A program made the translations under genes and the position numbers. A stretch of DNA of 55,171 nt from Blastococcus tunisiensis. GTDB lineage: Bacteria > Actinomycetota > Actinomycetes > Mycobacteriales > Geodermatophilaceae. The stretch is from the NCBI RefSeq assembly GCF_900112815.1, contig NZ_FOND01000027.1:1-55171 (forward strand), in the 5' to 3' direction. The stretch's first letter is position 1. Each line of letters opens with the position of its first letter. The notes beneath the pieces are model-generated. The model was not told where the DNA came from, searched no databases, and saw only the letters and a list, made by a program, of their open reading frames with translations. Positions 1 through 23,905 of this stretch are shown here, piece by piece.

Positions 1-72
1 AACTCCTTGGGGTAGGGCTTGGGCACGGTGAACATCCTTCCAGCGGCACCTGTCGGCACCACAGATCAGATG

Positions 73-645
73 TCACCTACTCGCGCAGCAGTCCCGTCCG
101 ACGTCCAGCATTTTCATGTTGTCGGCCTCGCGGTCGAAGGCTTGGCTGACCGTCTCAACAGTCAGGGCTTCATACCGGGCGAGGCGGCTCTGCTGTGGGA
201 AAGAGAAGCGCAGGGCGAGAAAGCAGTAGCGGTCGCCGTCCATCGGTGCGCTGGCCTGGACCGTGAGCTGGTTGCCGCCTGTGGCGTCCATCCCGTCCGG
301 CAGAATGTCGTAGTCGCGCGCGAGGTCGATCTGCGGGCGGAGCAACCTCTGATCAGACTCCCCATGGTCCATGCCAGCCGTTGTCAGGAATCCTCCGATA
401 TCCTCGAATAGTGGAACCGACGTGAGCGTCAAGCCTGTCGAAAGGTCCACCAACTGGCGCGCGACCGCGAAAGACCGGTCGACCAATTGATCGCCTGCGG
501 TGGCTGAAACTTCCACCTCCACCGAGGCCTCCCGGTTGGAATCGGAGCAGGCCCCGACGGCCATCAGGGCCGCAACGATCGTGACCGCATGCAAACGTCT
601 CGGTAGGAGCGGCACGGGCCATCGGCTCCGGAAATCGTCGCTCAT
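73..645 (-). CDS. Predicted lipoprotein of unknown function
   Basis: 190 residues. The N-terminus has a basic stretch, a hydrophobic segment (about residues 19-31) and the lipobox VGAC with the lipidation Cys at residue 33, so it should be exported and membrane-anchored on the outer face. The remaining ~155 residues match no family I recognise; two adjacent cysteines sit four residues from the C-terminus. The ATG overlaps the TGA of the upstream membrane-protein gene (ATGA), so the two are translationally coupled and probably act together. Base composition is lower in G+C than the rest of the window, in keeping with an acquired patch. Confidence 0.75.
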   Translation of the reverse strand: MSDDFRSRWPVPLLPRRLHAVTIVAALMAVGACSDSNREASVEVEVSATAGDQLVDRSFAVARQLVDLSTGLTLTSVPLFEDIGGFLTTAGMDHGESDQRLLRPQIDLARDYDILPDGMDATGGNQLTVQASAPMDGDRYCFLALRFSFPQQSRLARYEALTVETVSQAFDREADNMKMLDVGRDCCASR

Positions 646-1592
646 CGTGGCGGCCAGGCTTCTTCGCTGCGGGGAAGGGTGACCCTGTCCACTCCCTCGC
701 TCGGCGCGGTCAGCTCAAACGGCGCGCCTTCGTCATCGACCGTGATGGTCTCGTTGTCGCCATCGGGGGTTATGACGTCGAGTTCGATCTCCCACAGGCA
801 ATGGCAGGTGCTGGTCGTTGCGACCACCGTGAATGCTTCTACTTCTGCGCTTGTAACGGTCAGCGGGAATTCCCACCCGGGATCCTTCATCACCTCCGGC
901 GGTGACGGATCCAGGTCTGCGTTGAGCACGCGCTCCGGCGCGGGGCCGGCTCCGTCCGGTGCGATCCAGGTTCCGCCCAAGGGCTCACGTCGTTCGACGA
1001 CGACGACTCGAGCACCCACGATGATCGTGGGCTCCTCCTTGTCGCTGCGCGCGAGGAAGCTGACCGACATCTGGTTGGCGTACACGGCGTCATGGTTCTC
1101 GGCCCACTGCTCGAAGGCGGCCCGTCCCGCGGCGTCTCCGGGATAAGGAGGGCGGTTCAGCTCCGCGAGCGACAGGGGAACCACCATGTCGGGCGAAGTC
1201 CACTGTCCGTTTGTGAAGTCGACGTTCGATGAATCAATGCGGATGTCGTCTTCTGTCAGCCATTGGACGAGCGCAAATGCGATTGTGATGAGCCCGAGTG
1301 CCGCGACGATGAAGGCAAGAGGGCTCTTATGAAACTCCTGACCCAATCCCGAGCGGAGGCTTCGGATTCGCGTAGGAAGCGATTCAATCTCGGAGGGCGG
1401 CGCCACTGATGGCGTGTCGGAACTCCTGCGTGCATGCAGTGGCGCCGTCTCGGGGGCCCTGCTCGTTGGCGCCTCCGGAATGGGAACCATGAGGTGGTCC
1501 ACCTGATGTTCGTCGTCTGTTCGGAACGGCTCTCCAGACAACTCGACGCTTGAGGTCGGCGACTCGACGCCGTCATCGGTGGACCCAGTCAT
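642..1592 (-). CDS. Single-pass membrane protein of unknown function
   Basis: 316 residues. The first ~85 residues are Pro/Ser/Glu-rich and probably disordered and cytoplasmic; one clear membrane helix lies at about residues 91-112, followed by a ~200-residue extracytoplasmic domain. No family recognised. A purine-rich AGGGGG lies about 14 bases before the ATG, a long spacing, so the start is likely but not certain. It overlaps the following lipoprotein gene by 4 bases, which suggests a two-gene envelope module. Like its neighbour it is less GC-rich than the core genes. Confidence 0.7.
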   Translation of the reverse strand: MTGSTDDGVESPTSSVELSGEPFRTDDEHQVDHLMVPIPEAPTSRAPETAPLHARRSSDTPSVAPPSEIESLPTRIRSLRSGLGQEFHKSPLAFIVAALGLITIAFALVQWLTEDDIRIDSSNVDFTNGQWTSPDMVVPLSLAELNRPPYPGDAAGRAAFEQWAENHDAVYANQMSVSFLARSDKEEPTIIVGARVVVVERREPLGGTWIAPDGAGPAPERVLNADLDPSPPEVMKDPGWEFPLTVTSAEVEAFTVVATTSTCHCLWEIELDVITPDGDNETITVDDEGAPFELTAPSEGVDRVTLPRSEEAWPPR

Positions 1593-1987
1593 CGGCTCAC
1601 TGCTTTCCCCCTGTAGCGAGTCGCTGTGCCGCGCAGGCTAGCCGAAGCAGGCCCGCTGGCGGCGCTCAGCGGCCACCCGGATCCACAGCGCTTCGTATTT
1701 GATCCGACCTCGCCAGCCTCGCGGACGTAGGACGGCTGTCGAAGACCAGTTGCGTGAAAGACGCGGAAGGCTCTTACTCAAGGCGATAGGCGCGCCGCCA
1801 CGATCGGCCGCAACCCTGCGGAGGCGGCTTCCGCTGGTGGCAATTCTGGTTGCAGTTGCAGTGAATCCGTGGCCGTACGCCTACGTCCGCTCTTGTCCCG
1901 GAACAGGGTGAACTTGCTGTTCAGAGGCGTGTTCCGGACTCTGGCGGTCGTCCCCGAACGCGATCATGACGGCCTGGCAGTGTGGGG

Positions 1988-2018
1988 GGCCAGGGGTTCG
2001 AGTCCCCTCAGCTCCACC
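1988..2018 (+). repeat. tRNA 3' fragment, candidate attachment (att) site
   Basis: Positions 1992-2008 form a perfect T-arm (AGGGG, loop TTCGAGT, CCCCT), followed by a 7-base acceptor 3' strand CAGCTCC, discriminator A and CC. No 5' acceptor, D-arm or anticodon arm can be folded from the 70 bases before it, so this is not a complete tRNA gene. A bare tRNA 3' end is the usual scar left by tyrosine-recombinase islands. The parent tRNA should begin GGAGCTG or GGGGCTG, and is not in this window. Confidence 0.7.
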
Positions 2019-2027
2019 CCGATGACC

Positions 2028-2055
2028 AGGCCGTGCCCCTTCGGGGGAGCGGCCT
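2028..2055 (+). terminator. Hairpin next to the tRNA fragment
   Basis: AGGCCG (2028-2033) pairs with CGGCCT (2050-2055), and CCCC (2036-2039) with GGGG (2044-2047) round a TTCG tetraloop, with a small internal mismatch. There is no U-tract. It may be a terminator or part of the att structure. Confidence 0.4.
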
Positions 2056-2093
2056 GAGTCGTCTCTAGTTGCAGTGTCCGGACCCCTGCCTGG

Positions 2094-2186
2094 CCACAGC
2101 AGGGCGCGCATCCGGTCGGTGGCCTCGCGGGCCAGCGCCGGCATGACGTGGCTGTAGATGTCCATCGTCGTGGAGCCGTAGGTGCC
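2094..2186 (-). pseudogene. Remnant of a tyrosine integrase C-terminus
   Basis: Reading leftward from 2186 the translation ends in STTMDIYSHVMPAL followed by REATDRMRALLW. This is the C-terminal signature of actinobacterial phage/ICE tyrosine recombinases, including the catalytic Tyr region (IYSHV). No continuous frame extends upstream to supply the catalytic Arg/His box, so the gene is broken. It lies 76 bases from the tRNA 3' fragment, the normal position of an integrase beside its att site. Downstream the frame simply runs on through the tRNA fragment. Confidence 0.65.
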
Positions 2187-2537
2187 GGACGCCGGGGACC
2201 GACTTCAGTCCGCGCTCAAGCCTTGGCGTCCCAGTCTTGATGCTCGCTCCGCCGTTCATCGCGAACAGCCTGTGGCCGGGCCTGCGTCGCTGTCCCGGCG
2301 CGCCCCACTGCGGTACACGCTGGCCGCGTTCCCGCGGGAGCGCGGTCAAGTCGGCTGGCTTGACGACGTTCCAGTGGGAACGTCCGACTCTCGGCCTGAG
2401 TGTCCTCAAGCGGCCCACTTAGGGACACATGGCACCATTCCCATCGGTCCCGAGCGGCCCGGTGTGGACGCGCCCCGTCAGGGCTGCGGACCTACGCCTT
2501 ACAAGTCGTCCCGAGCCAGGAGCTGCCAGCGGTGCCG

Positions 2538-3287
2538 ATGTCGGAGAACCTTTACGTCAAGGACCAGAAGACCGTCGTCGGCCCCGTCAGGTGCCTCGCC
2601 CTGAGGGGTAGATGGGATGCGCGGGCGACGGAGACATACCTCGCTAAGGCATGTAACGGCGTGCAGTGGTACGCGACAGAAGATGATGACTCCTGCGACC
2701 TACTGCGGGAGGTTGGCGCGAACCTGACCTTCCTTTCGCTTCGCGCGGCGAAGCGAATGTCGGACGCTTCTCTTTCGGAGCTGACGAGCCTTCGATTTCT
2801 CGATTGCCTGAACCGTGGAAAGGATGCGTTGGAATTCGTGCGCCTCAGGCAGCTTGAGCAACTGGCAATCGACGACCGGAACGACATCCGAGGGCTTAGC
2901 TCCCCGAGTCTCACCGCGGTCACCCTCAGCTCGACCAGGCGTCCCGTGTCGTTCTTCGCGACCGCCCCCAACCTGAGAGAACTGAAACTGCAGATGGTCG
3001 GGAAGCACCCAATCAGCTTGGCGGCAGAGCTACCAGAACTCAGAAGCCTGATGGTGCTCAAAGGAAGTCTTAGCTCCTTCGCAGGACTGAACGCCCCCCA
3101 ATTGGAGAACATCACCATCGACGGGGCCTACGCGTCAGGGCCGGTCGACCTGCGACCGCTTGCCCACATGCCTGCCCTCAGGTTCGTCACCATCGGGATC
3201 AAGAACCCCGCTGAGTTTGTGGGACTTGATGCGCTCAGCGGTCGGCAAGAGGTCCGTGCTTCCGTAGGAGAAGTCGGATCGCGTTAG
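2538..3287 (+). CDS. Leucine-rich-repeat-like protein
   Basis: 249 residues from ATG 2538 (AGGAG 15 bases upstream). The central part repeats a Leu pattern every ~20-25 residues (LTFLSL, LRFLDCL, LEQLAID, LTAVTLS, LRELKLQ, LRSLMVL, LENITID, LRFVTIG), typical of a solenoid of leucine-rich repeats that binds other proteins. There is no signal peptide or membrane helix, so it is probably cytoplasmic. A longer frame reaches back to 2400, but its first 46 residues look like non-coding sequence. G+C is clearly lower than in the flanking core genes, and it sits beside the att scar; I infer it arrived by transfer. Partner and role are unknown. Confidence 0.65.
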   Translation: MSENLYVKDQKTVVGPVRCLALRGRWDARATETYLAKACNGVQWYATEDDDSCDLLREVGANLTFLSLRAAKRMSDASLSELTSLRFLDCLNRGKDALEFVRLRQLEQLAIDDRNDIRGLSSPSLTAVTLSSTRRPVSFFATAPNLRELKLQMVGKHPISLAAELPELRSLMVLKGSLSSFAGLNAPQLENITIDGAYASGPVDLRPLAHMPALRFVTIGIKNPAEFVGLDALSGRQEVRASVGEVGSR

Positions 3288-3324
3288 CCCTGTGATGCCT
3301 CAGTGCAGAGCGGTGGAACAGCGT

Positions 3325-3346
3325 GGCGGCTCGCCCTAAGGCCGCC
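3325..3346 (+). terminator. Weak terminator-like hairpin after the LRR gene
   Basis: GGCGGC (3325-3330) and GCCGCC (3341-3346) pair around a 10-base loop, followed by TTC. It sits between the convergent genes ending at 3287 and 3430. Confidence 0.35.
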
Positions 3347-3429
3347 TTCAGGCGCGTGGCCGTGGCTGCAGCGCGCGCTGCCGGAGCCGCGCAACCAGGC
3401 GCCGCCCGCTGGTGGCTCGCGTTCGGGGG

Positions 3430-3765
3430 TCAGACCAGCTGGTTCTCCTGCAGGCGGCTCCGGACCCAGCCGATGAGGCAGTAGAGCGCGGCGTGCCCCT
3501 CGGGGGAGGCGAAGACCTGCTCCACCCGCGCCGCCTCGATCAGCTCGTCGCTGTCGGCGTTGCCGCTGCGGTAGAAGCGCTGCATCACCCGGCCGGACTC
3601 GCTGTCGCTCCGGAAGAGGCCGGCGATGCCGAGGGCCACGGCGTCGGACACCACCAGGGAGACCGGCGGGTTGTCGAGCTGGCCGCGCCGGTGCAGCACG
3701 TCGGTGACCTCGGCGGCGACGACGAGGTCCCCGGCGTGCAGGGATGCCTTGCTGGTGATGATCAC
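3430..3765 (-). CDS. Small conserved-type protein of unknown function
   Basis: 111 residues from GTG 3765, chosen because AGGGGG (3779-3774) stands 8 bases in front; a longer frame to 3822 lacks such a site. The protein is acidic with no signal peptide or membrane helix. It ends in an amphipathic stretch (AALYCLIGWVRSRLQ). I do not recognise the family. It stands alone, convergent with the LRR gene and divergent from the TasA-like gene. Confidence 0.6.
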   Translation of the reverse strand: MIITSKASLHAGDLVVAAEVTDVLHRRGQLDNPPVSLVVSDAVALGIAGLFRSDSESGRVMQRFYRSGNADSDELIEAARVEQVFASPEGHAALYCLIGWVRSRLQENQLV

Positions 3766-3969
3766 TGGTGGTGCCCCCTGTTGCGGACGAACATGTTCTC
3801 TTTCCTGGTGCTGGATCGGCACGCAACGGGGTCGGCTGAAGGGCAGTCCCCATTACGGGGTTCTTGCGGAAACGTTGCGGCGCCACCGAGGGAACCGTGC
3901 GCCGGGCCGGGCAGCGTGCCCTGTGACGCCGGGTGAACTCCTCGCCCGGCCGGCAGCAGGAGGCTCCCC

Positions 3970-4590
3970 GTGTCGATCCGTCCCGACCTCTCGTCGGCCC
4001 GTCGTGCAGCCTTTCCCAAGGCGGTCGCCTCGCTCGGCGTCCTCGCCGCGGCCGGCGCCGTCGCGGGCCTGGGCACGTTCGGCTCCTTCACCGACAGCAC
4101 CACGCCCGTGCAGACCGACGTGGCGGCCGGCACGGTGGCGATCGAGCTCTCCCCGGCTGCGGCCTACCGCACCGTGCCGATGAGCCCGGGCGGCCTGCTC
4201 CCCGGTGACTCCACCGCCACCCCGTTCGACATCGCCAACGTCGGGGACGTCGAGTGGGCGTCGGTGACCTTCACCTCCTGGGCCACCCGGTCCAGCGTGC
4301 TCGACACCGATCCGATCCACGGCCTGCAGCTGACCCTCGAGTCGTGCCCGGTGTCCTGGACCGTGGCCGGCGCGGGCTACGAATGCGGCGGCACCGCCCA
4401 GCAGCTGTACGCGGGGCCGATCGTCACCGACGAGCCGCTCGTCGGCGCCGCTGCCCTGGTTCCCGGAGGCGTCGACCACGTGCTGGCCACGGTCACCTTC
4501 CCGGAGACCGCCGGCGACGCCCACGAGAACAAGACCACCGATCTCGCCTTCGCCTTCACCGCCGTGCAGCGGGACGGCGCCGCCCGCTGA
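3970..4590 (+). CDS. TasA/camelysin-like secreted protein with SipW-type signal peptide
   Basis: 206 residues from GTG 3970, with AGGAGG at 3958-3963. The N-terminus has basic residues, a hydrophobic core (about 17-34) and then GLGTFGSFTDS. This matches the SipW cleavage region of TasA/camelysin, followed by the family pattern T-x-V-x-A-G-T-V-x-I. The mature part is a ~160-residue beta-rich domain with two Cys. No peptidase lies beside it; it is a paralogue of the protein at 19066-19683, so the SipW at 18404-19033 is its likely processing enzyme. TasA-family proteins form surface fibres or surface proteins; a fibre role here is inference. Confidence 0.8.
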   Translation: MSIRPDLSSARRAAFPKAVASLGVLAAAGAVAGLGTFGSFTDSTTPVQTDVAAGTVAIELSPAAAYRTVPMSPGGLLPGDSTATPFDIANVGDVEWASVTFTSWATRSSVLDTDPIHGLQLTLESCPVSWTVAGAGYECGGTAQQLYAGPIVTDEPLVGAAALVPGGVDHVLATVTFPETAGDAHENKTTDLAFAFTAVQRDGAAR

Positions 4591-6563: not shown

Positions 6564-6911
6564 TCAGTCGGTCGCGGTCTCCGGGTCGGTGACCGGACGC
6601 CGGTCGGCGGCCGACCCCGGCGAGTCGCCGTCGCGGCGGTACAGGCGGCGCTCGACGAAGAGGGTGTCGTTGCGGATCGAGGAGGCGTGGTCGGCGATCT
6701 CCGCCGTCCCGCCGGACAGCCGCTTCAGCGCCACCGTCAGCGCGGAGCGGTGGTCCCGGATCATGAGCAGCACCTCGTCGAAGCTCTCCTTGACCACGTA
6801 CTTGGTGCCGTCGACGAGGTGCACCACGGTGTCGGGGTCGGTCTCGACGCGCTCGATGTGGGTCGGGTCGACGGAGAAGTACTCGCCGTTGCGGCAGGTC
6901 ACAGCGATCAC
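6564..6911 (-). CDS. FlbD-like protein, orphan with C-terminal extension
   Basis: 115 residues from GTG 6911, with GGAAGG 8 bases upstream. Residues 1-55 match the FlbD family closely: MIxVTxxNGxxFxVxPxxIERVExxPDTVVxLxxGxKYVVKESxxEV. In flagellated bacteria flbD lies among hook/motor genes, but no flagellar gene is present anywhere in this window. The last ~50 residues are a charged tail absent from typical ~70-residue FlbD proteins. Its role outside flagella is unknown; it may be a small partner protein. It lies downstream of, and in the same direction as, the membrane operon 7046-10688. Confidence 0.75.
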   Translation of the reverse strand: MIAVTCRNGEYFSVDPTHIERVETDPDTVVHLVDGTKYVVKESFDEVLLMIRDHRSALTVALKRLSGGTAEIADHASSIRNDTLFVERRLYRRDGDSPGSAADRRPVTDPETATD

Positions 6912-15770: not shown

Positions 15771-16478
15771 GTGCCCGCACAGTCCGTGCTCGTCGTGGAG
15801 GACACCGACGAGATCCGCGAGCTCGTCACCACCGTGCTGCGCCGGGCCGGGTTCGACGTCCGCGAGGCCGCGTCGGGAGCCGCCTGCCTCGACGAGGTGC
15901 GCCGCGACACCCCCGACCTCATCGTGCTCGACCTCGGCCTCCCGGACGCCGACGGCACCGAGGTGTGCCGGCAGATCCGGGCCGAGACGCAGTGCTACGT
16001 GCTGATGCTGACCGCCCGCGCCGAGGAGGTCGACCTGCTCATCGGGCTGGCCGTCGGCGCCGACGGGTACATGGCCAAGCCGTTCTCCCCGCGGGAGCTG
16101 GTCGCCCGGGTGCAGGCGATGCTGCGCTTCCCCCGGACCCCACCCGCTCCGGTGGAGTCGACCGCAGCGGCGGAGGAGTCGGTGCGCCGGCTCGCCGAGC
16201 TGGAGGTGGACGAGGAGACGCGGGAGGTCCGCGTCGACGGTTCGGTGGTCGACCTGACCCGCACCGAGTTCGACCTGCTGGCCGCGCTGGCGTCGCGGCC
16301 GGGCCGGGTGCTGCAGCGGGAGACGCTGCTGCGCGAGGTCTGGCAGACCGACTGGGAGGGCAACCTCCGCCTGGTCGAGGCGCACATGTCCAACCTGCGC
16401 CGCAAGCTCGTGGCGGCCGGGCTGAACTCGCCCGAGATCCGCACGGTGCGGGGAGTGGGCTACCGGCTCGTCGCCTGA
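15771..16478 (+). CDS. OmpR/PhoB-family response regulator
   Basis: 235 residues from GTG 15771 behind AGGAGGAGG. A receiver domain (residues 4-118) has the acidic pair Glu10-Asp11, phospho-acceptor Asp54 (IVLDLGLP) and the conserved Lys in MAKPF. A winged-helix DNA-binding domain (about 140-233) ends RTVRGVGYRLVA. No kinase gene is adjacent on this strand; the nearest kinase is at 19991-21304 on the other strand. Its target genes are unknown. Confidence 0.9.
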   Translation: MPAQSVLVVEDTDEIRELVTTVLRRAGFDVREAASGAACLDEVRRDTPDLIVLDLGLPDADGTEVCRQIRAETQCYVLMLTARAEEVDLLIGLAVGADGYMAKPFSPRELVARVQAMLRFPRTPPAPVESTAAAEESVRRLAELEVDEETREVRVDGSVVDLTRTEFDLLAALASRPGRVLQRETLLREVWQTDWEGNLRLVEAHMSNLRRKLVAAGLNSPEIRTVRGVGYRLVA

Positions 16479-16536
16479 GAAAGGACCCCCTGCCCCCCAC
16501 CGCTCGCACGCTCGCGGCGGGACCCTGCAGGAGGCC
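16479..16536 (+). repeat. Post-stop hairpin repeat, copy A
   Basis: It begins at the first base after the TGA. Outer stem: CCCCCTGC (16486-16493) with GCAGGAGG (16527-16534), 7 of 8 paired. Inner stem: CCGC (16500-16503) with GCGG (16514-16517) around the loop TCGCACGCTC. Copies B and C keep the fold with different stem bases. Confidence 0.75.
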
Positions 16537-16551
16537 TGACGGGGTCAGGCC
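16533..16551. terminator. Convergent terminator covering a stop codon
   Basis: GGCCTGAC (16533-16540) and GTCAGGCC (16544-16551) make a perfect 8-bp stem with a 3-base loop. It overlaps the end of repeat copy A and the stop codon (16545-16547) of the pseudo-receiver gene. Confidence 0.6.
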
Positions 16552-17285
16552 GGGTGCGTCGCCTGGAGGGTGGCTGCGGGGCCCCAGCGGGTGCCCTCGA
16601 CACGGGCGCAGGCACCGACGAGCTCCATCAGGCGTGACTGCGGCACGACGCCGCGGCGGGCGTCGTCGGCGACCGCGCGAGCGGCCACCGCGACCTCGGT
16701 GCAGCCCATCCGGTCGCTGGCCACGGCGAGCAGGCCGGCCAGGTGGGCGACGGTGGCGGCGTCGCCCTCACGGGCGGCGGCCGCGATCGCGGTCAGCCGG
16801 TGGGGGAGGGCGCTGGCGTACATCTCCTCGGCGCGCTCGCGCACGCCGGCGGCCGGCTCCCGCACCGCGGCCACGGTCGCGACGGGGCGGCCGATCACCG
16901 GCGCGAGGCCGTGCATCACGTCCACGAACAGCCGCGGGTCCACCGGCTTGGCCAGGCAGGCCACGGCGCCGGCCGAGGCGGCCAGCGCCCGCACCTGGTG
17001 GGTGCGGCGGGTCGTCGTCACGAGGAACCGGGCGCGGCTGCCGCTCTCGCGCAGCTTGCGCATCAGGGTCGCCCCGTGGCCGTTGCGCATGGCCATCTCG
17101 GTGACCACGAGGTCAAAGTCGACGATGGCGGCCATGCGGAGCGCGGCGTCGGTGCCGACGGCCTCGACGACCTCCCAGCCGCCGAGCCGCAGCAGGGTGC
17201 TCGCGCGCTGCCGGGCGGCGGCGGAGTCGTCGACGACCAGGGCGGTACGGACGACGGGGGATTCGTTCGGGTGGGGCTGGGACAT
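16545..17285 (-). CDS. Degenerate receiver-Hpt protein lacking both phospho-acceptors
   Basis: 246 residues from ATG 17285. Residues 13-130 are a receiver domain with the acidic pair Asp19-Asp20 and Lys113 (CLAKPV), but the phospho-acceptor position is Glu63 (VVTEMAM). Residues ~145-246 are a helical domain aligning end to end with the Hpt domain of the paralogue at 17323-18000 (shared DARRGV), yet the Hpt His position is Gly184. Asp-to-Glu often mimics phosphorylation. So this protein probably cannot relay phosphate and may act as a binding or decoy partner of the intact paralogue (inference). Last gene of the SipW/TasA-like operon, 37 bases after its paralogue. Confidence 0.8.
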   Translation of the reverse strand: MSQPHPNESPVVRTALVVDDSAAARQRASTLLRLGGWEVVEAVGTDAALRMAAIVDFDLVVTEMAMRNGHGATLMRKLRESGSRARFLVTTTRRTHQVRALAASAGAVACLAKPVDPRLFVDVMHGLAPVIGRPVATVAAVREPAAGVRERAEEMYASALPHRLTAIAAAAREGDAATVAHLAGLLAVASDRMGCTEVAVAARAVADDARRGVVPQSRLMELVGACARVEGTRWGPAATLQATHPA

Positions 17286-17322
17286 GGCCCGGTCTCCGTT
17301 CCGGTCGAGGGGGGTGGGTGGG

Positions 17323-18000
17323 TCAGGACACCTGGGCGAGGGCCTGCAGTTCCTCGACCCGGGCGTGCGCCATGACCCCGCGGCGGGCGTCGGCGGCGAT
17401 GGCCTGGCAGATCGAGGCGACGTCGGCGTGACCGAACTGGCCGCTGGTGCCGGCGAGGGTGTGCGCGGCGGAGGCGACGGCCGGGGCGTTCCCCGATCGG
17501 GTGCCCGCGGTGATGGCACCGAGCCGGGCGGGCAGGGCCGCCAGGTACATCCCGTGCAGCCGGTCCATCAGCGCGGCGTCGACGTCGTCGTCGTGCCGGC
17601 CGGCCGGGCCGTGCGGCTCGGGGAGATCGCCCTGCGCAGCCGGCCCCGTGGTCCGGCTGCGCAGGAAGTCGAGGAGGACGTGCGCCGCGACCGGCTTGGC
17701 CAGGCAGGCCATCGCACCGGCGGTGATCGCCTCGGCCCGGGCCTCGTCGGTCGGGTCGGCGGTGATCACGAGGAAGCGCGCCCGGGAGCCGTCGCGCCGC
17801 ATCCGGCGGAGCATCGCCGGACCGGTCCCGGCGGATCCGGCCACATCGGTGACGACCAGGTCCACGTCGGAGGAGGCGGTGACGCGGTGCGCGGCCTCGG
17901 CGTCGGAGGCCTCGCGGACCTGCCAGCCGCCGAGGCGGAGCAGCCCGGCCACCCGCCGGCGGGCGAGGGCGTCGCGGTCGACGACGAGGGCGGTCAGCAC
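17323..18000 (-). CDS. Receiver-Hpt phosphotransfer protein
   Basis: 225 residues from GTG 18000, overlapping the stop of the secreted-protein gene by 7 bases. Receiver domain: Asp8, Asp10, phospho-acceptor Asp52 (VVTDVAG), Lys102 (LAKPV). C-terminal Hpt domain: His180 in AAHTLAGTSGQFG, matching the Hpt pattern AHxLKGxSxxxG. It has no DNA-binding or enzymatic output domain, so it should act as an intermediate in a phosphorelay. The kinase at 19991 and receiver at 21301 are obvious partners. It lies directly downstream of the SipW and secreted-protein genes. Confidence 0.85.
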   Translation of the reverse strand: MLTALVVDRDALARRRVAGLLRLGGWQVREASDAEAAHRVTASSDVDLVVTDVAGSAGTGPAMLRRMRRDGSRARFLVITADPTDEARAEAITAGAMACLAKPVAAHVLLDFLRSRTTGPAAQGDLPEPHGPAGRHDDDVDAALMDRLHGMYLAALPARLGAITAGTRSGNAPAVASAAHTLAGTSGQFGHADVASICQAIAADARRGVMAHARVEELQALAQVS

Positions 18001-18407
18001 GTCGTCACCCAGACCGGGGCCGAGGTCCTGGTCCAGCCACCCTTGCTGACGGTGGTGACCGTGACGGGGATCGACTGCGCGGACCAGACCCGGCCCATGG
18101 TGTGCGTGAAGGTGGTGGTGTTGCCGACCGCGAACGTCATCGGCGTGCCGCCGGTCTGGGCGGTCACGATGTAGCCGGTGGTCTTCTCCGACGCGCTCGC
18201 CGTCCAGGTGACCTTGGCGTACATCGTGGAGCCGGAGCACGTGGTCCGGTCGACCAGGTTGGTGGGGGCCTGGACGGTCAGGCCGGTGACGGTGGTCCGC
18301 GGGAGGGCGACGCTCTCGGCGAACGTGGCCGAGGCGGGGATGCTCGAGCCGACGACGATGGTCAGCGCCAGGCCGATCAGGACCAGGATGCGGCGGGTGC
18401 GGGTCAC
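17994..18407 (-). CDS. Small secreted protein, FN3-like
   Basis: 137 residues from GTG 18407, overlapping the SipW stop (GTGA). A signal peptide (residues 7-27, cleavage near PASA) precedes a ~110-residue beta-rich domain with a fibronectin-III-like stretch (YAKVTWTASASEKTTGYIV). Only two Cys are present, Cys57 and the C-terminal residue Cys137, likely a disulphide. Family not recognised. Its position between signal peptidase and phosphorelay genes suggests a second structural or accessory component of the surface product. Confidence 0.75.
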   Translation of the reverse strand: MTRTRRILVLIGLALTIVVGSSIPASATFAESVALPRTTVTGLTVQAPTNLVDRTTCSGSTMYAKVTWTASASEKTTGYIVTAQTGGTPMTFAVGNTTTFTHTMGRVWSAQSIPVTVTTVSKGGWTRTSAPVWVTTC

Positions 18408-19033
18408 GACTCGTCCTCCTCGTCCTCGTGGGTGGGGCGCCAGATGGTGAGCAGCAGCCAGCCGGCCAGCAGGGCCGGGGCGCCGTAGAGCAGCACCTGC
18501 GTGACCACGGGGGCGCGCAGGGCCTGGATCAGGTGGCCGAGCTCGGGGATGACGGCGCGGACCTCGTAGGCGGTGTCGCCCTGGAGCGTCGCGGTCCACG
18601 GGTCGACGCCGTCGTTCGCGTCGCCCTTGGTGCGGACCTGGACGGCGCCGTCGGGGCCGGTCTCGACCGAGACGACCCGGTGGGTCACGAGGCTCCGGTC
18701 GTCGACGGGCTTGTGGTAGGTGATCACCATGCCCTCGGTGACCTCGGAGACCGCGATCGGCGTGACGACGGTGACGTCACCCGGATCGATCTCCGGCGCC
18801 ATGCTCGCGGTCAGCATGGTCATGGTGCGGTAGCCCAGCAGGTGCGGTCCGACGGCCAGCACGAGGAACGCCAGGACGGCCAGACCCACGACTCCGCGGA
18901 CCAGCCACCGGGACACGAGGCCCAGTGCGCGGGCGGCCCGGCCGGCCGGGTGGCCGGTGGTGGAGCGCGTGTCCTCGGCCGGGGGCAGCTGTGCGGCTGC
19001 CCCCGGGCGACGGACAGGGAGGACGGCGGTCAT
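18404..19033 (-). CDS. sipW: SipW-type (ER-like) signal peptidase I
   Basis: 209 residues from ATG 19033. Membrane helices lie at about 44-67 and 177-197. The catalytic Ser77 is in TASMAPEIDPGD and the general base is His118 in LVTHRVV, with Asp138 in TKGDAND. A Ser-His-Asp arrangement marks the SipW/ER class, in contrast to the Ser-Lys of ordinary signal peptidases. SipW enzymes process TasA/camelysin-type precursors; such a precursor is encoded 32 bases upstream (19066-19683), and a paralogue lies at 3970-4590. Confidence 0.9.
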   Translation of the reverse strand: MTAVLPVRRPGAAAQLPPAEDTRSTTGHPAGRAARALGLVSRWLVRGVVGLAVLAFLVLAVGPHLLGYRTMTMLTASMAPEIDPGDVTVVTPIAVSEVTEGMVITYHKPVDDRSLVTHRVVSVETGPDGAVQVRTKGDANDGVDPWTATLQGDTAYEVRAVIPELGHLIQALRAPVVTQVLLYGAPALLAGWLLLTIWRPTHEDEEDES

Positions 19034-19065
19034 GGCGGGATCTCCGGGAGGTCGTCGGACGGCGA

Positions 19066-19683
19066 TCAGCGGGCGGTGCCGGTGCGCTGGGTGCCGGTGA
19101 AGACCAGGCTCAGCCCGGAGGACTTGCCCTGGAAGTTGTCGCCGGCGCCGGTCGGCAGGGAGATCGAGAACGTGAGGTGGTCCGTCGCTCCCACGGCCAC
19201 CGAGGCGGGGGTGTCGAGCACCATGCTGTTGGCGATCGGGCCGCGACCCAGCGAGCGCGTGGTGCCGGAGCAGGTGTAGGTCGGCGCGGTGGCGGTGCCG
19301 CCCTGGGTCCACGGGACCGAGCAGGACGTGACGGCCAGCTGCAGGCCGTTGGTCGCGTCGGTGGTCAGGATGCTCGGGTTCGTGACGGTGGTGTTCAGCG
19401 TGACCGACGCGAGCGGCGAGGTGCCGCCGTTGACCAGGTTGACCGCCCGGGTGACCGAGTCGCCGGGCACGAAGCCCTCGACGGTGGCCGGGATGGCCGC
19501 GCCGACGCCGGCGAGGTTGATGTCGACGGTGCCCGAGGCGACGGTCGTGGTCACCGGGGTGGTGCTGTCGGTGAACGTGCCGAAGGTGCCCATGCCGGCG
19601 ACCGCGGCAGCGGCGCCGATGACGCCGAGCGAGCCGACGACCTTGCGGGCGGTCGAGCTGGCGGCGAGGGTCGTGGTGCTCAT
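19066..19683 (-). CDS. TasA/camelysin-like secreted protein
   Basis: 205 residues from ATG 19683 with GGGAG 9-10 bases upstream. Signal region: Arg13-Lys14, hydrophobic core (16-31), then GMGTFGTFTDS, aligning with the cleavage region of Bacillus TasA, and TVASGTVDINL, the first strand of the family domain. The mature ~165 residues are Thr/Ser/Gly-rich and beta-type with two Cys. Probable substrate of the adjacent SipW, and a candidate fibre-forming surface protein. A paralogue stands alone at 3970-4590. Confidence 0.87.
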   Translation of the reverse strand: MSTTTLAASSTARKVVGSLGVIGAAAAVAGMGTFGTFTDSTTPVTTTVASGTVDINLAGVGAAIPATVEGFVPGDSVTRAVNLVNGGTSPLASVTLNTTVTNPSILTTDATNGLQLAVTSCSVPWTQGGTATAPTYTCSGTTRSLGRGPIANSMVLDTPASVAVGATDHLTFSISLPTGAGDNFQGKSSGLSLVFTGTQRTGTAR

Positions 19684-19990
19684 GTCCGTGGGTCTCCCTG
19701 TGTCCGGTTCGTCGACCGGCGTTCCGGCGACAGGGAGAACTCTGCGGCCCGTACCGCAGGCCACCCGCCAGCGTTCCGCAAGGAATCCGCAAGGAATCGG
19801 CGGACCCGGCGCAATCGGGCGCTTCTCCCCGCCTTTCCGGGCCTTTCCGGGACTCCGCGACCCTGCGTCGGTCCCACCGGGCGCCCGCAGACGCCCCGGA
19901 GCGGGAACCGGTGCCCGACTGCCGCACGTATGCGTCCCGGCGCGGGAATCGGTGCCCCGACGGGCGCGCGGATGCGTCCCGGCGCGGGAA
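19684..19990. other. Intergenic control region between kinase and TasA-like genes
   Basis: 307 bases. Besides the two repeats listed, a CCTTTCCGGG direct repeat lies near 19840. No gene is visible. The region probably holds the promoter of the five-gene secretion operon and separates it from the kinase pair. Confidence 0.5.
19775..19796. promoter_or_regulatory. 11-bp direct repeat upstream of the TasA-like gene
   Basis: TCCGCAAGGAA occurs twice head to tail (19775-19785 and 19786-19796), about 92 bases upstream of the TasA-like start. One helical turn per unit suits a dimeric regulator such as a response regulator. No regulator with a DNA-binding domain is encoded in this operon; the OmpR-type protein at 15771 is a possible candidate. 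Confidence 0.4.
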
Positions 19991-19997
19991 TCAGGCG
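19901..19997. repeat. 41-42 bp tandem repeat, about 2.3 copies
   Basis: Units start at 19901, 19942 and 19984, each opening GCGGGAAYCGGTGCCC (partial in the third) with GATGCGTCCCGGC near the end. The partial third unit contains the stop codon (19991-19993) of the histidine kinase. Confidence 0.8.
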
Positions 19998-21304
19998 ACG
20001 GTGCGGGGGAGCGTCAGCGTGAAGGTGGTGCCCCGGCCCTCGGCGCTGGTCAGGCCGAGCGTGCCGCCGTGCGCGGTGGTGATGGCCTTCGTGATCGCCA
20101 GGCCGAGCCCCACCCCCGGAACGGCGTGCCGCCGTGCGGTGGAGGACCGGAAGAAGCGGGTGAACAGCTCGCCCTGCTCGCCGGTGGGGATGCCCATGCC
20201 GGTGTCGCTCACCGCCAGCTGCGCCACCGGGGCCGCGCCGGGGCGTGGTTCGGCGCTCACCGCACCGTCGGCGGTCGCCCAGCCGCTGCGCAGGGACAGC
20301 GTCACCCGGCCACCGGACGGGGTGAACTTCACGGCGTTGGACACCAGGTTGTCGCAGGCCTGACCGAGCCGGACGGCGTCACCGGGCACGACGACGCCGC
20401 CGTCCGGGAGGTCGACGACGAGGTCGACGCCGGCGCCCGCCGCGGTCACCCGGGCGCTCTCCTCCGCGGCCCGGACGACGTCGGCGAGGTCGACGTCCCG
20501 CGGGTCGAGGGTGAACCGCCCGGCGTCCACCTGGGCGGTGAACAGCAGGTCACCGACGAGCCGCAGCAGCCGGTCGGCGTTGCGCTCGACGGTCGCGAGG
20601 TAGCTGCGCTGCTCGTCGGTGAGGGGCTCGCCGTCCTCGTCGAGGACGAGTTCGAGGTAGCCGAGGATGGAGGTCAGCGGGGTCCGCAGCTCGTGGCTGA
20701 TCAGGCTGACGAACTGGTCCTTCATCCGCTCGGTGGCGCGCACCTCGGTCATGTCGGTGCCGACGAAGTTCCAGCCGGCGTGCACGCCGCGGTCGTCGGT
20801 GCGCGGCGTGACGGCGACGGAGACGGTCCGCTCCTGCCCGTCGGCGGCCACGTACGTCCAGTCGCGGACGTCGCTGCCGTGCTCCTGCGCCGCATGGACG
20901 AGGACGCCCAGCCCGGGAGCCGCGCCGCACGCCGCGGCCTCGGCCTCGAGTTCCTCGGCGAGGTGGAACTCGACGATCGAGCGCTTCCGGACGACCTCGG
21001 GCCGGGGCAGCCCGAGCATCCGCTCGGCGCCCGGGTTCCAGACGCGGATCACGCCGTCGCGGTCGGTACCGATGATCGACTGCTCCGTCACCGCGTCGAT
21101 GACGCTGGTCATCGTCTGGGCGCGGGCCGCGAGCATCCGGGTGGCGAGGTCGAGCTCGTCCGCGCGGGTCCGCACCTGGGCCAGCAGCGCGGCGTTCTCC
21201 TGCCGCAGCCGGCCGATCTCGGCCGCCCGTGGGGCCACGCCGGCCAGCAGGCGGTGCACCAGCCGCGGCCGCCGCACGGCGGCCGGCACCCGGGCGGTGG
21301 TCAT
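19991..21304 (-). CDS. PAS-domain sensor histidine kinase
   Basis: 437 residues from ATG 21304, overlapping the upstream receiver gene by 4 bases (ATGA). Order: coiled coil (about 28-63), PAS/PAC domain (64-190), HisKA with phospho-acceptor His204 (LISHELRTPL), HATPase (about 300-435) with N box (DNLVSNAVKFTP) and G boxes (DTGMGIP, GVGLGLA). No membrane helix, so it is a soluble cytoplasmic sensor. The PAS ligand is unknown. It lies directly upstream of the TasA-like/SipW/Hpt genes on the same strand, so it is the likely phosphate donor of the relay. Confidence 0.9.
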   Translation of the reverse strand: MTTARVPAAVRRPRLVHRLLAGVAPRAAEIGRLRQENAALLAQVRTRADELDLATRMLAARAQTMTSVIDAVTEQSIIGTDRDGVIRVWNPGAERMLGLPRPEVVRKRSIVEFHLAEELEAEAAACGAAPGLGVLVHAAQEHGSDVRDWTYVAADGQERTVSVAVTPRTDDRGVHAGWNFVGTDMTEVRATERMKDQFVSLISHELRTPLTSILGYLELVLDEDGEPLTDEQRSYLATVERNADRLLRLVGDLLFTAQVDAGRFTLDPRDVDLADVVRAAEESARVTAAGAGVDLVVDLPDGGVVVPGDAVRLGQACDNLVSNAVKFTPSGGRVTLSLRSGWATADGAVSAEPRPGAAPVAQLAVSDTGMGIPTGEQGELFTRFFRSSTARRHAVPGVGLGLAITKAITTAHGGTLGLTSAEGRGTTFTLTLPRTVA

Positions 21305-21732
21305 GCCGGCAGCCGGGCGGTGAGCGCCCGGACCTGGTGCACCAGGCCGGCGACGCCGAAGGGCTTGGCCAGGTAGGCGTCGGCGCCGGCGGCCAGGCCG
21401 CGGGCGACGTCCTCGAACGATGCGCCCGCCGACAGCAGCAGGATCCGAACACCGGCGGTGGACGGGTCGGCGCGCAGTGCCTCGCACACCTCGAGCCCGG
21501 TGGCGCCGGGCATGGAGACGTCGAGGACGGCCAGGTCGGGGGTGTCGGCGCGGGCCAGGGCCAGCGCGGCGTTCCCGTCCGCGACCGACCCGGTGACCGC
21601 GCAGCCGGCCCGGGTGACGGCGAGGCCGACGAGCGCGCGGATGTCCTCCTCGTCGTCGGCGACCAGCACGCGGAGGGGCGGAGCGGACGGGGCGGGCACC
21701 GGGGGGACGAGCACGGACACGGCCTCGTCCAC
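21301..21732 (-). CDS. Stand-alone receiver domain protein
   Basis: 143 residues from GTG 21732 with GGAG 5 bases upstream. One CheY-like receiver: Asp26-Asp27, phospho-acceptor Asp71 (AVLDVSMPG) and Lys in LAKPF. A short Pro-rich N-terminal extension is present, with no output domain. It is translationally coupled to the PAS kinase (ATGA) and likely its first phosphate acceptor or a feedback modulator. Confidence 0.88.
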   Translation of the reverse strand: MDEAVSVLVPPVPAPSAPPLRVLVADDEEDIRALVGLAVTRAGCAVTGSVADGNAALALARADTPDLAVLDVSMPGATGLEVCEALRADPSTAGVRILLLSAGASFEDVARGLAAGADAYLAKPFGVAGLVHQVRALTARLPA

Positions 21733-21824
21733 GGGAGCTCCAGGCGGTCAGGCGGCTCGGGAGAGCCGCGCGGCGTCGTCACGACGGACAACGGCCGCTC
21801 GACCGGGGGCCTGCAGCGTGCCGC

Positions 21825-21858
21825 GGCGCCCCCTCACCCCGGAGGGTGAGGGGGCGCC
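21825..21858. terminator. Perfect 15-bp stem-loop
   Basis: GGCGCCCCCTCACCC pairs fully with its complement around CGGA. It lies between the stress operon (ending 21935) and the receiver-kinase operon on the same strand; with the next hairpin it insulates the two. Confidence 0.8.
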
Positions 21859-21869
21859 GGAGGGAAGCA

Positions 21870-21904
21870 CTGCGCCCCGCCGGGACGGACCGGGCGGGGC
21901 GCAG
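21870..21904 (-). terminator. Terminator of the DUF3618 operon
   Basis: CTGCGCCCCGCC pairs fully with GGCGGGGCGCAG across an 11-base loop, 31 bases after the DUF3618 stop. Confidence 0.8.
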
Positions 21905-21934
21905 GCGTCGGGGTGGGCCGGATCGGCCCGCGGT

Positions 21935-22570
21935 TCAGGAGGTCGGTGCCTTGCTCTGCACCGACTCCTTGGACTGCTGGGCCTGGCCCTGCACGTCCGC
22001 TGCCGCCGACCTGCCCTCCTCGGTGACCGTGCCGGCGGCGTCCTGGGCGGTCGCCTTCACCGACTCCACCGCCTGCTCGGCGGCCGGCCGCAACTGCTCA
22101 CCCATGTCCTGGGCCGCCTGCTTGGCCGGCTCGAGGAGCGTGTCCTTGTGCTCCTTCACCGCCGACTCGGCCTGCTGGGCCAGCTGCCGCTCCCGCTCCG
22201 AGGCGGGCAGCAGGCTCGACACGAGCCAGCCGACGCCGAAGGCGATGAGGCCGGCGGCCATGGGGTTGCCCTGGGTCTGGCGGATCACCTGGTCCGGGGC
22301 CTGCTGGACGGCGCCCATCGCGTCGGAGGCGGTGCCCTGCACGGACCCGGCCGCGCCGGAGGCCTTCCCGTGCATCTGCGCGGTGGTGTCCTGGGCACTG
22401 CCCATGACCTTCTCCTTGAGGTTGGTCATCCGGCCCTTCGCCGCCGTCACGCGACGGTCCACGACGCGGGAGGGGTTCACCTTCTCGTTGAGGGCGTCGA
22501 CGTCGTAGCTGAGCTCGCGCCGGGTGTCCTCGATCTGCCGCCGGATGACGTCCGGGTCACTGGTGGTCAT
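21935..22570 (-). CDS. DUF3618 domain protein
   Basis: 211 residues. The N-terminal DUF3618 motif DPDVIRRQIEDTRRELSYDVDAL (residues 5-27) is followed by an Ala/Gln/Gly-rich amphipathic region, one membrane helix at 103-122 and a long amphipathic tail with repeated A-x-A/Q-x-A heptads like LEA or apolipoprotein helices. DUF3618 proteins are common in actinobacteria beside holin-III family proteins. Function is unproven; an envelope stress role is inferred from the company it keeps. Confidence 0.8.
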   Translation of the reverse strand: MTTSDPDVIRRQIEDTRRELSYDVDALNEKVNPSRVVDRRVTAAKGRMTNLKEKVMGSAQDTTAQMHGKASGAAGSVQGTASDAMGAVQQAPDQVIRQTQGNPMAAGLIAFGVGWLVSSLLPASERERQLAQQAESAVKEHKDTLLEPAKQAAQDMGEQLRPAAEQAVESVKATAQDAAGTVTEEGRSAAADVQGQAQQSKESVQSKAPTS

Positions 22571-22594
22571 CGCTTCTCCTCGGAAATCTCGTGG

Positions 22595-23104
22595 TCAGTT
22601 GGGCTTCATGGCGCCGGGGACCTTCGAGAGGGTCTCCACGGTGCGCTCGGGCTTGGGGTTGACCTGCTGGAACTTCTTCTTGCCCATCAGTCCGGCGACG
22701 GCGCCGACGACGCCCCAGAGGACGGCGACGATCAGTCCCGCCCAGCCGACCGGCATGGCGCTCGCGAGCGCCCACATGAGGGCCAGGGAGAGGAACAACG
22801 CGACCATGTATCCGGCGAAGCCGGCGGCGCCCAGCAGGCCCGCGCCGGTGCCGGCCTTCTTGGCCTCGGCCTTCAGCTCCACCTTGGCCAGCTCGAGCTC
22901 CTGGCGCATCAGCGTGGAGAGGTCCTTGCTGACCTCACCGATCAGCTGGCCGACGGACACGCCCTCGATGTCGGGCTGCCCGGCATCGGTGGTCGGCGTG
23001 CCCATGCTGCCGCTGTAGTCGGCCGCGTAGTTCTGCGCGTTCGGGTCGGCATAACCCTGGGACGCCGCCCCGGCCGGGGTGGCCCCGGAGTAGGGGGTCG
23101 TCAT
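22595..23104 (-). CDS. Actinobacterial holin III superfamily (phage holin-like) membrane protein
   Basis: 169 residues. A disordered N-terminus (1-50) precedes an amphipathic helix (SVGQLIGEVSKDLSTLMRQELELAKVELKAEAKKAG), two membrane hairpins (88-113, 119-140) and a basic tail. The pattern RQELELAKxELxxxAKKAGxGAG is the hallmark of this chromosomal family. No lysin or prophage gene is nearby, so lysis is unlikely; it forms a unit with DUF3618 and the LEA-like protein. Confidence 0.8.
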   Translation of the reverse strand: MTTPYSGATPAGAASQGYADPNAQNYAADYSGSMGTPTTDAGQPDIEGVSVGQLIGEVSKDLSTLMRQELELAKVELKAEAKKAGTGAGLLGAAGFAGYMVALFLSLALMWALASAMPVGWAGLIVAVLWGVVGAVAGLMGKKKFQQVNPKPERTVETLSKVPGAMKPN

Positions 23105-23107
23105 GCC

Positions 23108-23905
23108 TCAGCCCACCCCACCGGGGCGACGGGCCGGGTCGTCCCAGCCGGCCGGGCTGGCCGGCGGGACCATGCTGCCCTCCGGCGGCACGGTGCCGTA
23201 CGGCGGCGGCGGCAGCGGCGCCCCGCCGGTGGCCGCGCCCGTGGTCGCGTAGGTGTCGGTCGTCGCCGGGGCCGGCGCCGGCAGGTCGGAGTACGTCGGC
23301 GCGGGGTCGACGTAGTTGCTCTGGGCCGACGTGCCGCTGTCGCTGTGCGCGGCCTTGACGCCGCTGGTCAGCCGGCCGGCGAGCACGCCGGCAGCGGCCG
23401 CGCCGAGCAGGAACAGGCCGGGCTTGCGGCGGGCGAAGCTGCGGACGTCGTCGAGCAGCTGGGCCGGCTCGCGGTCCTGCAGCATCGAGGCGAAGCTCTC
23501 CACCGAGCTCGATGCCTGCTGGAGCAGGTCCCGCGCCGGCCCGGGAGCACCCTCGCTGGTCCCGTCGGCCAGGCTGCGCAGCTCCTGGGCGAGGGAGGAC
23601 AGGCTCTGGCCAGCCTTCTGCTGCTGGCTGATCGCCTGGTCCTTCAGCTGGGAGCGGCCCTGCTCGAGCAGGTCCTTGGCCTGGCGCTGGGTCTCCTGGG
23701 CGACGTTCCGGGCCTCGTCGGTCGCGACCGAGGCCACGCGGCCGCCGGCCTGCTGGGCGGTCTGGCCGACGTTCTTGGCCTCGCCCATCGCGACGTCCTT
23801 GGTCTCCTGGGCCTTGCCCTTGGTGCTCGACTGAGTCGTGTCGGACGGGGACGTGGCCCCCGGCGTGGTGGGGGGCGGGAGCGGGGCGTCGATGCTGTGC
23901 GTCAT
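23108..23905 (-). CDS. LEA-like amphipathic protein with one membrane helix
   Basis: 265 residues. Residues 25-155 are Ala/Gln/Lys-rich with an 11-residue-type periodicity (AMGEAKNVGQTAQQAGGR, then DEARNVAQETQRQAKD), resembling group 3 LEA proteins, which protect membranes during drying. One membrane helix (161-178) is followed by a Pro/Ala/Thr-rich tail. It is the first gene of the stress operon, 3 bases before the holin-like gene. A SigB/SigF-type promoter precedes it. Confidence 0.75.
   Translation of the reverse strand: MTHSIDAPLPPPTTPGATSPSDTTQSSTKGKAQETKDVAMGEAKNVGQTAQQAGGRVASVATDEARNVAQETQRQAKDLLEQGRSQLKDQAISQQQKAGQSLSSLAQELRSLADGTSEGAPGPARDLLQQASSSVESFASMLQDREPAQLLDDVRSFARRKPGLFLLGAAAAGVLAGRLTSGVKAAHSDSGTSAQSNYVDPAPTYSDLPAPAPATTDTYATTGAATGGAPLPPPPYGTVPPEGSMVPPASPAGWDDPARRPGGVG

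Follow-up and report, generated by a model that had tools for sequence, protein, structure and literature searches.

Related systems and the locus in Blastococcus tunisiensis

TasA-SipW matrices are best known from Bacillus; SipW of the tapA-sipW-tasA locus of Bacillus subtilis cleaves TasA, and BsaA of Clostridium perfringens is kin to TasA. This study concerns a 55,171-nucleotide stretch of Blastococcus tunisiensis (Geodermatophilaceae), the whole contig NZ_FOND01000027.1 (C22 of the 43 contigs of a 5.04-Mb genome), hereafter called the window. It encodes a TasA-like protein and a SipW-type signal peptidase in one row with a histidine kinase, a single-domain receiver and two receiver-Hpt proteins, next to a convergent gene for an OmpR/PhoB-type regulator. 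We believe that a TasA-type regulon of the cell surface or matrix probably has its dedicated two-component switch in this locus, in which the kinase would signal to the OmpR regulator, the regulator would act through an array of 11-bp direct repeats on tasA-sipW, and the receiver-Hpt protein would be a feedback modulator.

The closest described arrangement is the sipW-bsaABCRSD locus of C. perfringens. There, BsaR is reported to bind and activate the sipW promoter, and BsaR and BsaS are both needed for the transcripts (PMC7395162). As in that locus, a SipW peptidase, a secreted filament protein (BsaA there, a putative one here), a sensor kinase and a response regulator are encoded together here, which gives a BsaRS-type arrangement with a kinase and a DNA-binding regulator at the sipW locus. 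Unlike the single operon described for C. perfringens, the locus studied here has a convergent OmpR gene, a kinase in what appears to be a separate unit, receiver-Hpt proteins and an 11-bp repeat regulon; the likeness to BsaRS is one of arrangement. Because of BsaR and BsaS, SipW export with a dedicated two-component system is already known, and what is new is the repeat array, the regulon and the pattern of the Hpt residues. The signal site of B. subtilis TasA has the residues TWA↓AFND (PMC10269814), which the predicted TFG↓TFTD site of the window TasA proteins resembles. Unlike in the tapA-sipW-tasA locus, the peptidase here scores below the cut-off of the Bacillus SipW equivalog NF046067 (58.5 against 190 bits), and kinase and regulator genes stand at the locus.

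Among titles and abstract beginnings of the literature on SipW and TasA in actinobacteria, including Arthrobacter, no regulator of an actinobacterial TasA was found. Within the family, Geodermatophilus obscurus G-20 has been reported to make an extracellular functional amyloid (PMC3035280). The genome taken as this strain (G047) gave no TasA match, so this amyloid is probably a protein other than TasA.

Genes of the locus

The genes concerned are the following.

21301-21732, minus strand: single-domain receiver P0001 (Pfam Response_reg, 86 bits), with a 4-bp overlap with the kinase start
19991-21304, minus strand: PAS-HisKA-HATPase histidine kinase P0002 (Pfam and NCBIfam support)
19066-19683, minus strand: TasA/camelysin-like protein with a SipW-type signal and predicted cleavage at TFG↓TFTD (Peptidase_M73, PF12389, 41.2 bits, cut-off 22.5)
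18404-19033, minus strand: SipW-type (Ser-His) signal peptidase P0004 (TIGR02228, archaeal/ER-type, 60.1 bits, cut-off 51.85)
17994-18407, minus strand: small secreted FN3-like protein P0005 (fn3 sub-threshold, 15.3 bits, cut-off 25)
17323-18000, minus strand: receiver-Hpt copy 1, P0006 (Response_reg 59.9 bits; Hpt, PF01627, 31.7 bits, cut-off 24.6)
16545-17285, minus strand: receiver-Hpt-like copy 2, P0007 (no Pfam Hpt match; alignment to copy 1)
15771-16478, plus strand, convergent to the row: OmpR/PhoB-type response regulator P0008 (Response_reg 101.2 bits, Trans_reg_C 88.4 bits)
3970-4590, plus strand: second TasA-like gene P0009 with a SipW-type signal (207 bits with a TasA profile built without P0009)

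A sequence-only reading of this DNA had described seven minus-strand genes, and gene calling with Pfam and NCBIfam found all seven in the order given. Its domain assignments held for the receiver, the kinase, the TasA-like protein, SipW and both domains of copy 1, while the FN3 match stayed sub-threshold and copy 2 lacked a Pfam Hpt match. It had also counted six of the seven genes as overlapping or within 37 bases of the next. The coordinates give six junctions (overlap 4, gap 307, gap 32, overlap 4, overlap 7, gap 37), five of which overlap or are at most 37 bp apart; the 307-bp gap between kinase and tasA is indeed the only large one. The statement that there is no DNA-binding output is not supported, because it overlooked P0008, whose 3' end is separated by 66 bp from copy 2, the end of the row, and the conserved repeat array in the 307-bp gap.

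The catalytic Ser of SipW is present in 70 of 71 aligned rows, the remaining row being without that part, and the catalytic His in 71/71. FN3-like genes related to P0005 were called in many relatives, and P0009 scores narrowly below the Peptidase_M73 cut-off (21.3 against 22.5 bits). A simple hydropathy scan, which depends on the called starts, predicted no transmembrane segment in P0002 and at least one in 12 of 20 sampled kinases.

Promoter block upstream of tasA

The 307-bp gap holds a 57-bp block, in which 11-bp direct repeats, four in number, are joined to a -10-like CAGAGT, and a degenerate copy stands before the second TasA-like gene.

19749-19792, minus strand: 11-bp direct repeats of the TTGCGG N5 type, four in tandem, to which OmpR probably binds (sequence comparison, model R1)
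19739-19744, minus strand: -10-like CAGAGT, whose second, fifth and sixth bases (A, G, T) are invariant in 34 boxes
3864-3920, plus strand: degenerate second copy of the block, the second-highest place in the position weight matrix scan of the window, with a further repeat-like unit from 3853

The period of the repeats is clear, with an identity of 0.652 at lag 11 and of 0.225-0.373 at the other lags from 5 to 19 (30 blocks). PhoB sites lie just upstream of the -10 element. The PhoB site has two 11-bp direct repeats, and the present system shares with PhoR/PhoB and the Pho box a HisKA kinase, an OmpR/PhoB regulator and 11-bp direct repeats; it differs in having four repeats instead of two and in being linked to TasA and secreted proteins (PMC3978041).

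The block was found upstream of 69 of the 72 scored tasA genes (those with at least 130 bp upstream; matrix score >20). This count is partly circular, which weighs against our reading, since the matrix was made from 34 of these sequences and model R1 was likewise built from tasA upstream regions, together with one receiver-Hpt upstream region. The search of the 5.04-Mb genome with model R1 is not circular, and it gave one strong place (62.2 bits, E 2e-16; 150 of 12058 first-look candidates scored); the next place had 19.5 bits and lies, by eye, inside a coding gene. The degenerate copy stands 49 bp before the start of the second TasA-like gene, which is the usual distance. Its full score is 4.0 at 3864, its repeats-only scores are 12.2 at 3864 and 18.2 at 3853, and model R1 did not report it.

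Since the promoter block precedes tasA, at least two transcription units are suggested in the row. The operon proposed in the sequence-only reading keeps its gene order, which recurs across the family, so that the row is more than chance, while a single operon is doubtful. Consensus scans of 16400-22000 for sigma-70 promoters and terminators found neither, and an Rfam scan of the window gave no match.

Two further candidates were set aside. A conserved 5' leader hairpin after the -10 element is unproven: 78.5% of cells were paired in 53 leaders against 77.8% in shuffles, no pair was changed on both sides, and slid versions paired less (58.1% at most). Three imperfect 37-nt direct repeats, 41-42 bp apart, lie at 19873-19992 just after the kinase gene. 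As a control element they were rejected, as by eye none was seen in the upstream regions of the relatives compared except a partial likeness in L061; they are apparently lineage-specific.

Conservation in Geodermatophilaceae

We searched 112 genomes of the family for SipW with P0004 and for receiver-Hpt with P0006; the result tables for these two and for OmpR were counted manually. Strong SipW matches, with E-values down from about 1e-57 and leaving aside partial or weaker ones, occurred in 68 genomes, and in 62 of these a receiver-Hpt match lay close to SipW on the same strand. In the other six (G052, G104, G076, G078, G082 and G083) gene calling also showed none in the locus. The OmpR orthologue (P0008 match, E<=1e-60) was found in 84/112 genomes, including 67 of the 68 with strong SipW, the exception being G082; in a few genomes it does not share a contig with SipW. 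The genes called in the window and in 80 fetched loci have a recurrent order of receiver, kinase, TasA, SipW, FN3-like, receiver-Hpt and convergent OmpR, with variations. The link between sipW and signalling that had been proposed for the window is therefore conserved in relatives, and SipW/TasA export and signalling are genuinely linked.

The kinase and the OmpR regulator appear to be partners. The best evidence for this pairing is in G078, where the receiver, kinase and OmpR genes lie on one strand with successive 4-bp overlaps, and in G079, where a 4-bp overlap joins the kinase gene to that of OmpR. These are the two of the five loci of the Klenkia genus (g8) that have the kinase on the OmpR side. 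The phospho-residues of the two partners are fully kept in the aligned loci (kinase His 70/70 rows, OmpR Asp 76/76), as is the receiver Asp in 72/72 rows, which take in some other receiver proteins of the same loci.

The block was found at E<=1e-4 in 75 of 108 family genomes, and 74 of the 75 carry the OmpR orthologue. By matrix scans of their loci, G060, G061 and G096 also have blocks; they are outside the 75, a count made with stricter filters and on fewer than the 112 genomes. It may be asked whether another regulator binds the repeats and the neighbouring OmpR pair serves something else. In favour of this stands G082, which has the box and TasA-SipW, with OmpR only as fragments in its locus, a finding that weighs against our own reading. 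We consider this explanation very unlikely, because nearly all box-positive genomes carry this OmpR and the array, of the PhoB type of site, lies in the same locus.

Ten Geodermatophilus loci (L081-L090) are without TasA-SipW, and a receiver-Hpt or Hpt-only gene remains in all ten. TasA was not found in any of these ten genomes (16 genomes searched). A short open reading frame before the receiver-Hpt gene of G051 is by eye a TasA relic, so at least there the cassette was lost; in L089, the kinase and OmpR are missing too. On the kinase+OmpR tree (68 loci, quick method), SipW presence changes at least five times, and we therefore believe that the signalling module often outlives the export cassette; one SipW-less row on the tree (L140) is from an incomplete genome.

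These loci also bear on the view of the sequence-only reading that the secretion machinery or a protein partner is the target of the signalling, without transcriptional output. The receiver-Hpt proteins have no DNA-binding domain, and Hpt-like genes also follow sipW in Micrococcaceae, both of which would agree with it. The OmpR regulator and the repeat array at the locus argue against it, as does the persistence of the receiver-Hpt or Hpt-only gene in the ten loci where SipW is gone, and we regard it as highly improbable.

Other genes behind the block

To the main loci we added 54 further blocks in 52 loci, of which 40 were hand-picked from the listed places, mostly outside the main loci, and 12 came from earlier searches. 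Full-length TasA paralogues follow 19 of these blocks, mini-TasA proteins of 63-65 amino acids with a SipW-like signal follow five, and TasA relics two. Another 11 precede other proteins with a secretion signal by eye, seven of 90-219 and four of 46-92 amino acids. In five of the ten tasA-less loci (L081-L085), the block stands before the receiver-Hpt gene itself, 31-182 bp from the called start, with scores of 21.0-61.6. A feedback role of the receiver-Hpt protein is favoured by this finding, because the block precedes the gene where tasA-sipW is gone.

Receiver-Hpt proteins and the lost histidine

Copy 1 (P0006) of the window has the receiver Asp52 and the Hpt His180. Copy 2 (P0007) matches it over positions 2-219 with 46% identity and has Glu instead of the receiver Asp and no Hpt His. 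The first copies of 74 loci with a receiver-Hpt gene were aligned. The phospho-His is not conserved across these orthologues: the column holds H 27, A 9, T 8, Q 7, Y 7, F 5, G 5, N 3, D 2 and S 1. It changes at least 20 times on the kinase+OmpR tree, at least seven times between His and another residue. Leu at +2, Ala at +3, Gly at +4 and Ser at +6 from this position are invariant (74/74). The receiver Asp is kept in 45 loci, changed in 16 and missing in 13, and no second copy has the His (0/12 with a letter, one gap). At the position where Lys is the canonical residue of the Hpt motif, copy 1 has Ala, as do all 74 loci.

The fold seems to be retained. VIA-align on the whole receiver-Hpt model covered mainly residues 1-120, and for this reason the Hpt part was modelled alone; it gave a bundle of four helices with a pLDDT of 94.5. 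Foldseek placed Hpt domains first, at modest E-values (best 7c1i HptB, E 5.1e-3, probability 1.00, TMq 0.78), with no match at E<=0.001. Plants have pseudo-Hpt proteins such as AHP6, which likewise combine an Hpt fold with a replaced phospho-His. Unlike these, the present proteins are bacterial, usually carry an N-terminal receiver and still have the His in part of the family.

We considered whether the lineage of the window has a true multistep phosphorelay, in which phosphate would leave the kinase for the copy 1 receiver, pass next to the Hpt His of this copy and end on OmpR or P0001. The domains and the Hpt fold of copy 1 are those that a relay would need. Of the well-supported clades around the window, the smallest (support 95) has 10 loci and keeps the His in 10/10 and the receiver Asp in 9/10, with a gap in the remaining locus, where the gene call is split; five further hand-picked Blastococcus loci keep both residues. 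Because this clade keeps the residues, phosphotransfer may persist in the window's lineage, which counts against a simple pseudo-Hpt. Across the family, the His has been lost and kept repeatedly while the system persists, L066, a neighbour of the window's clade at lower support, has Phe at this position, and the Ala in place of Lys and the His-less second copies also speak against a relay. A relay in the window's lineage is therefore unlikely in our opinion, and a phosphorelay conserved across the family is doubtful. The residue pattern fits a protein-binding module better than a phosphorelay, although copy 1 of the window has both Asp and His.

Proposed mechanism

The genes, their synteny, the repeat array and its positions, the other box-linked genes and the residue conservation are read from the DNA, and from them we infer the later steps of a switch from kinase to OmpR to tasA-sipW. 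Kinase P0002, perhaps with the free receiver P0001, would control the phosphorylation of P0008. P0008 would bind the four 11-bp repeats ending just upstream of CAGAGT and activate tasA-sipW-fn3-receiver-Hpt; it may have a weaker effect of this kind on the second tasA at 3970. SipW would cleave the TFG↓TFTD-type signals of both TasA proteins, and TasA, judging from its family, would assemble outside the cell. The receiver-Hpt proteins would be expressed from this promoter too and would in turn modulate the kinase or the regulator, by docking or as a phosphate sink and not as an obligatory relay.

Besides the points already named, several observations weigh against this switch. The pairing of OmpR and box rests on co-occurrence and repeat type, and the kinship of the genomes inflates the counts. 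The three tasA genes without a scoring block include the window's own second TasA gene (with L079 and L117). Four of the 54 further blocks precede small proteins without a signal, and 13 have no assignable protein, among them nine hairpin arrays, L322, which runs into the contig end, and L354, which is shortly similar to a small protein and may be a fifth small protein without a signal. In the other five tasA-less loci (L086-L090), where the gene is reduced to its Hpt part, the block is absent or very weak (<=8.0). G104 and G052 keep SipW without receiver-Hpt, and no kinase was called beside OmpR in three of the five Klenkia loci (L080, L092, L093).

SipW loci outside the family

Among the 79 SipW loci that were the best of 226 relatives, 24 are outside the family, and 23 of these were analysed (L243 was left out). 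An OmpR gene convergent with sipW was found in six of the 23, and by eye a small Hpt-like gene follows sipW in nine. Six of these small proteins were scanned, four scoring above the Pfam Hpt cut-off and two below, and the His position is by eye Leu or Arg. Several Arthrobacter-type tasA upstream regions show, by eye, TTGAGG/TTGA repeats with CAGAGT or CACAGT; the Geodermatophilaceae matrix gives no score there. SipW and Hpt-like proteins may thus be linked outside the family as well.

One Pseudonocardia locus (L226) has a receiver-Hpt gene beside SipW. In 298 genomes of the order (51 in the family), the outside-family receiver-Hpt matches among those listed had less than 75 bits and reached at most position 162 of 224, and full-length orthologues were not seen. 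SipW was present in 27 of 118 sampled genomes of the class, the window's own included, with one match of 130 bits and the others of 43-82 bits. Behind the convergent OmpR gene next to sipW, the Arthrobacter locus L228 has a kinase gene and L229 a gene for a GGDEF-EAL protein. Two record titles look wrong: L172, a Blastococcus-like contig, is titled Bacillus sp. AZ43, and L243, an actinobacterial-type SipW locus, stands under a Vibrio title.

Hairpin arrays behind the block

Several Geodermatophilus genomes, and several of the Trujillonella genus, have no convincing gene in the 240-420 nt that come after the block. These stretches are arrays of GC hairpins in tandem, with loops of the GGGGGA type, and end in a long hairpin.

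Hairpin arrays after the box: L296, L297, L298, L301, L321, L333, L335, L336, L352
Hairpin arrays after TasA paralogues or relics: L300, L314, L323, L332, L340

Two of the arrays gave folding z-scores of -4.98 and -5.60. Loop GGGGA motifs exceed all 60 shuffles in seven of nine stretches; L336 equals the maximum and L333 has none in a loop. In an alignment of eight arrays, 5 of 69 pairs were changed on both sides, yet the covariation term was unfavourable (+3.67). Six-frame reading found one reading frame conserved between some of the stretches, which could be protein-coding. The first-hairpin pattern matches 15 loci, all box-linked, and a stricter cluster scan of all fetched loci matches five of them; the loci scanned are a biased sample. 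Six array loci compared with Rfam gave nothing above the gathering score and no CsrB/RsmZ-type match up to E 1, and two sub-gathering miRNA matches were taken as chance.

The arrays presumably resemble CsrB/RsmZ, and they could be decoy RNA. We speculated that the whole might be an actinobacterial counterpart of Gac/Rsm-type matrix control, in which the kinase-OmpR pair and a docking Hpt for which phosphorylation is dispensable would use a single repeat-array promoter to drive TasA filaments; in Geodermatophilus and the Trujillonella genus they would also drive a GGGGGA-loop hairpin RNA that could titrate an RNA-binding protein. This proposal is quite unlikely to hold as a whole.

Other features of the window

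Upstream of the receiver-kinase pair, LEA-like, Holin-X (PF07332) and DUF3618 genes lie at 21935-23905 on the minus strand, and the same trio is present in 34 of the 40 loci first fetched. An orphan FlbD-domain protein (PF06289, 68.5 bits) is encoded at 6564-6911 on the minus strand; six Geodermatophilus loci (L071, L073, L081-L084) have relatives of it and of a 111-amino-acid gene (3430-3765) in the neighbourhood of OmpR. Positions 1-3400 have a lower GC content (0.64-0.67) and little coding signal, and are perhaps a mobile-element remnant, because a short frame at 1881-2165 looks by eye like an integrase C-terminus.

Significance

The promoter block is a concrete and testable marker of the regulon in the 75 of 108 Geodermatophilaceae genomes that carry it. 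The Hpt domain, which has lost its His repeatedly and is otherwise conserved, offers a natural series for studying the role of an Hpt without phosphate.

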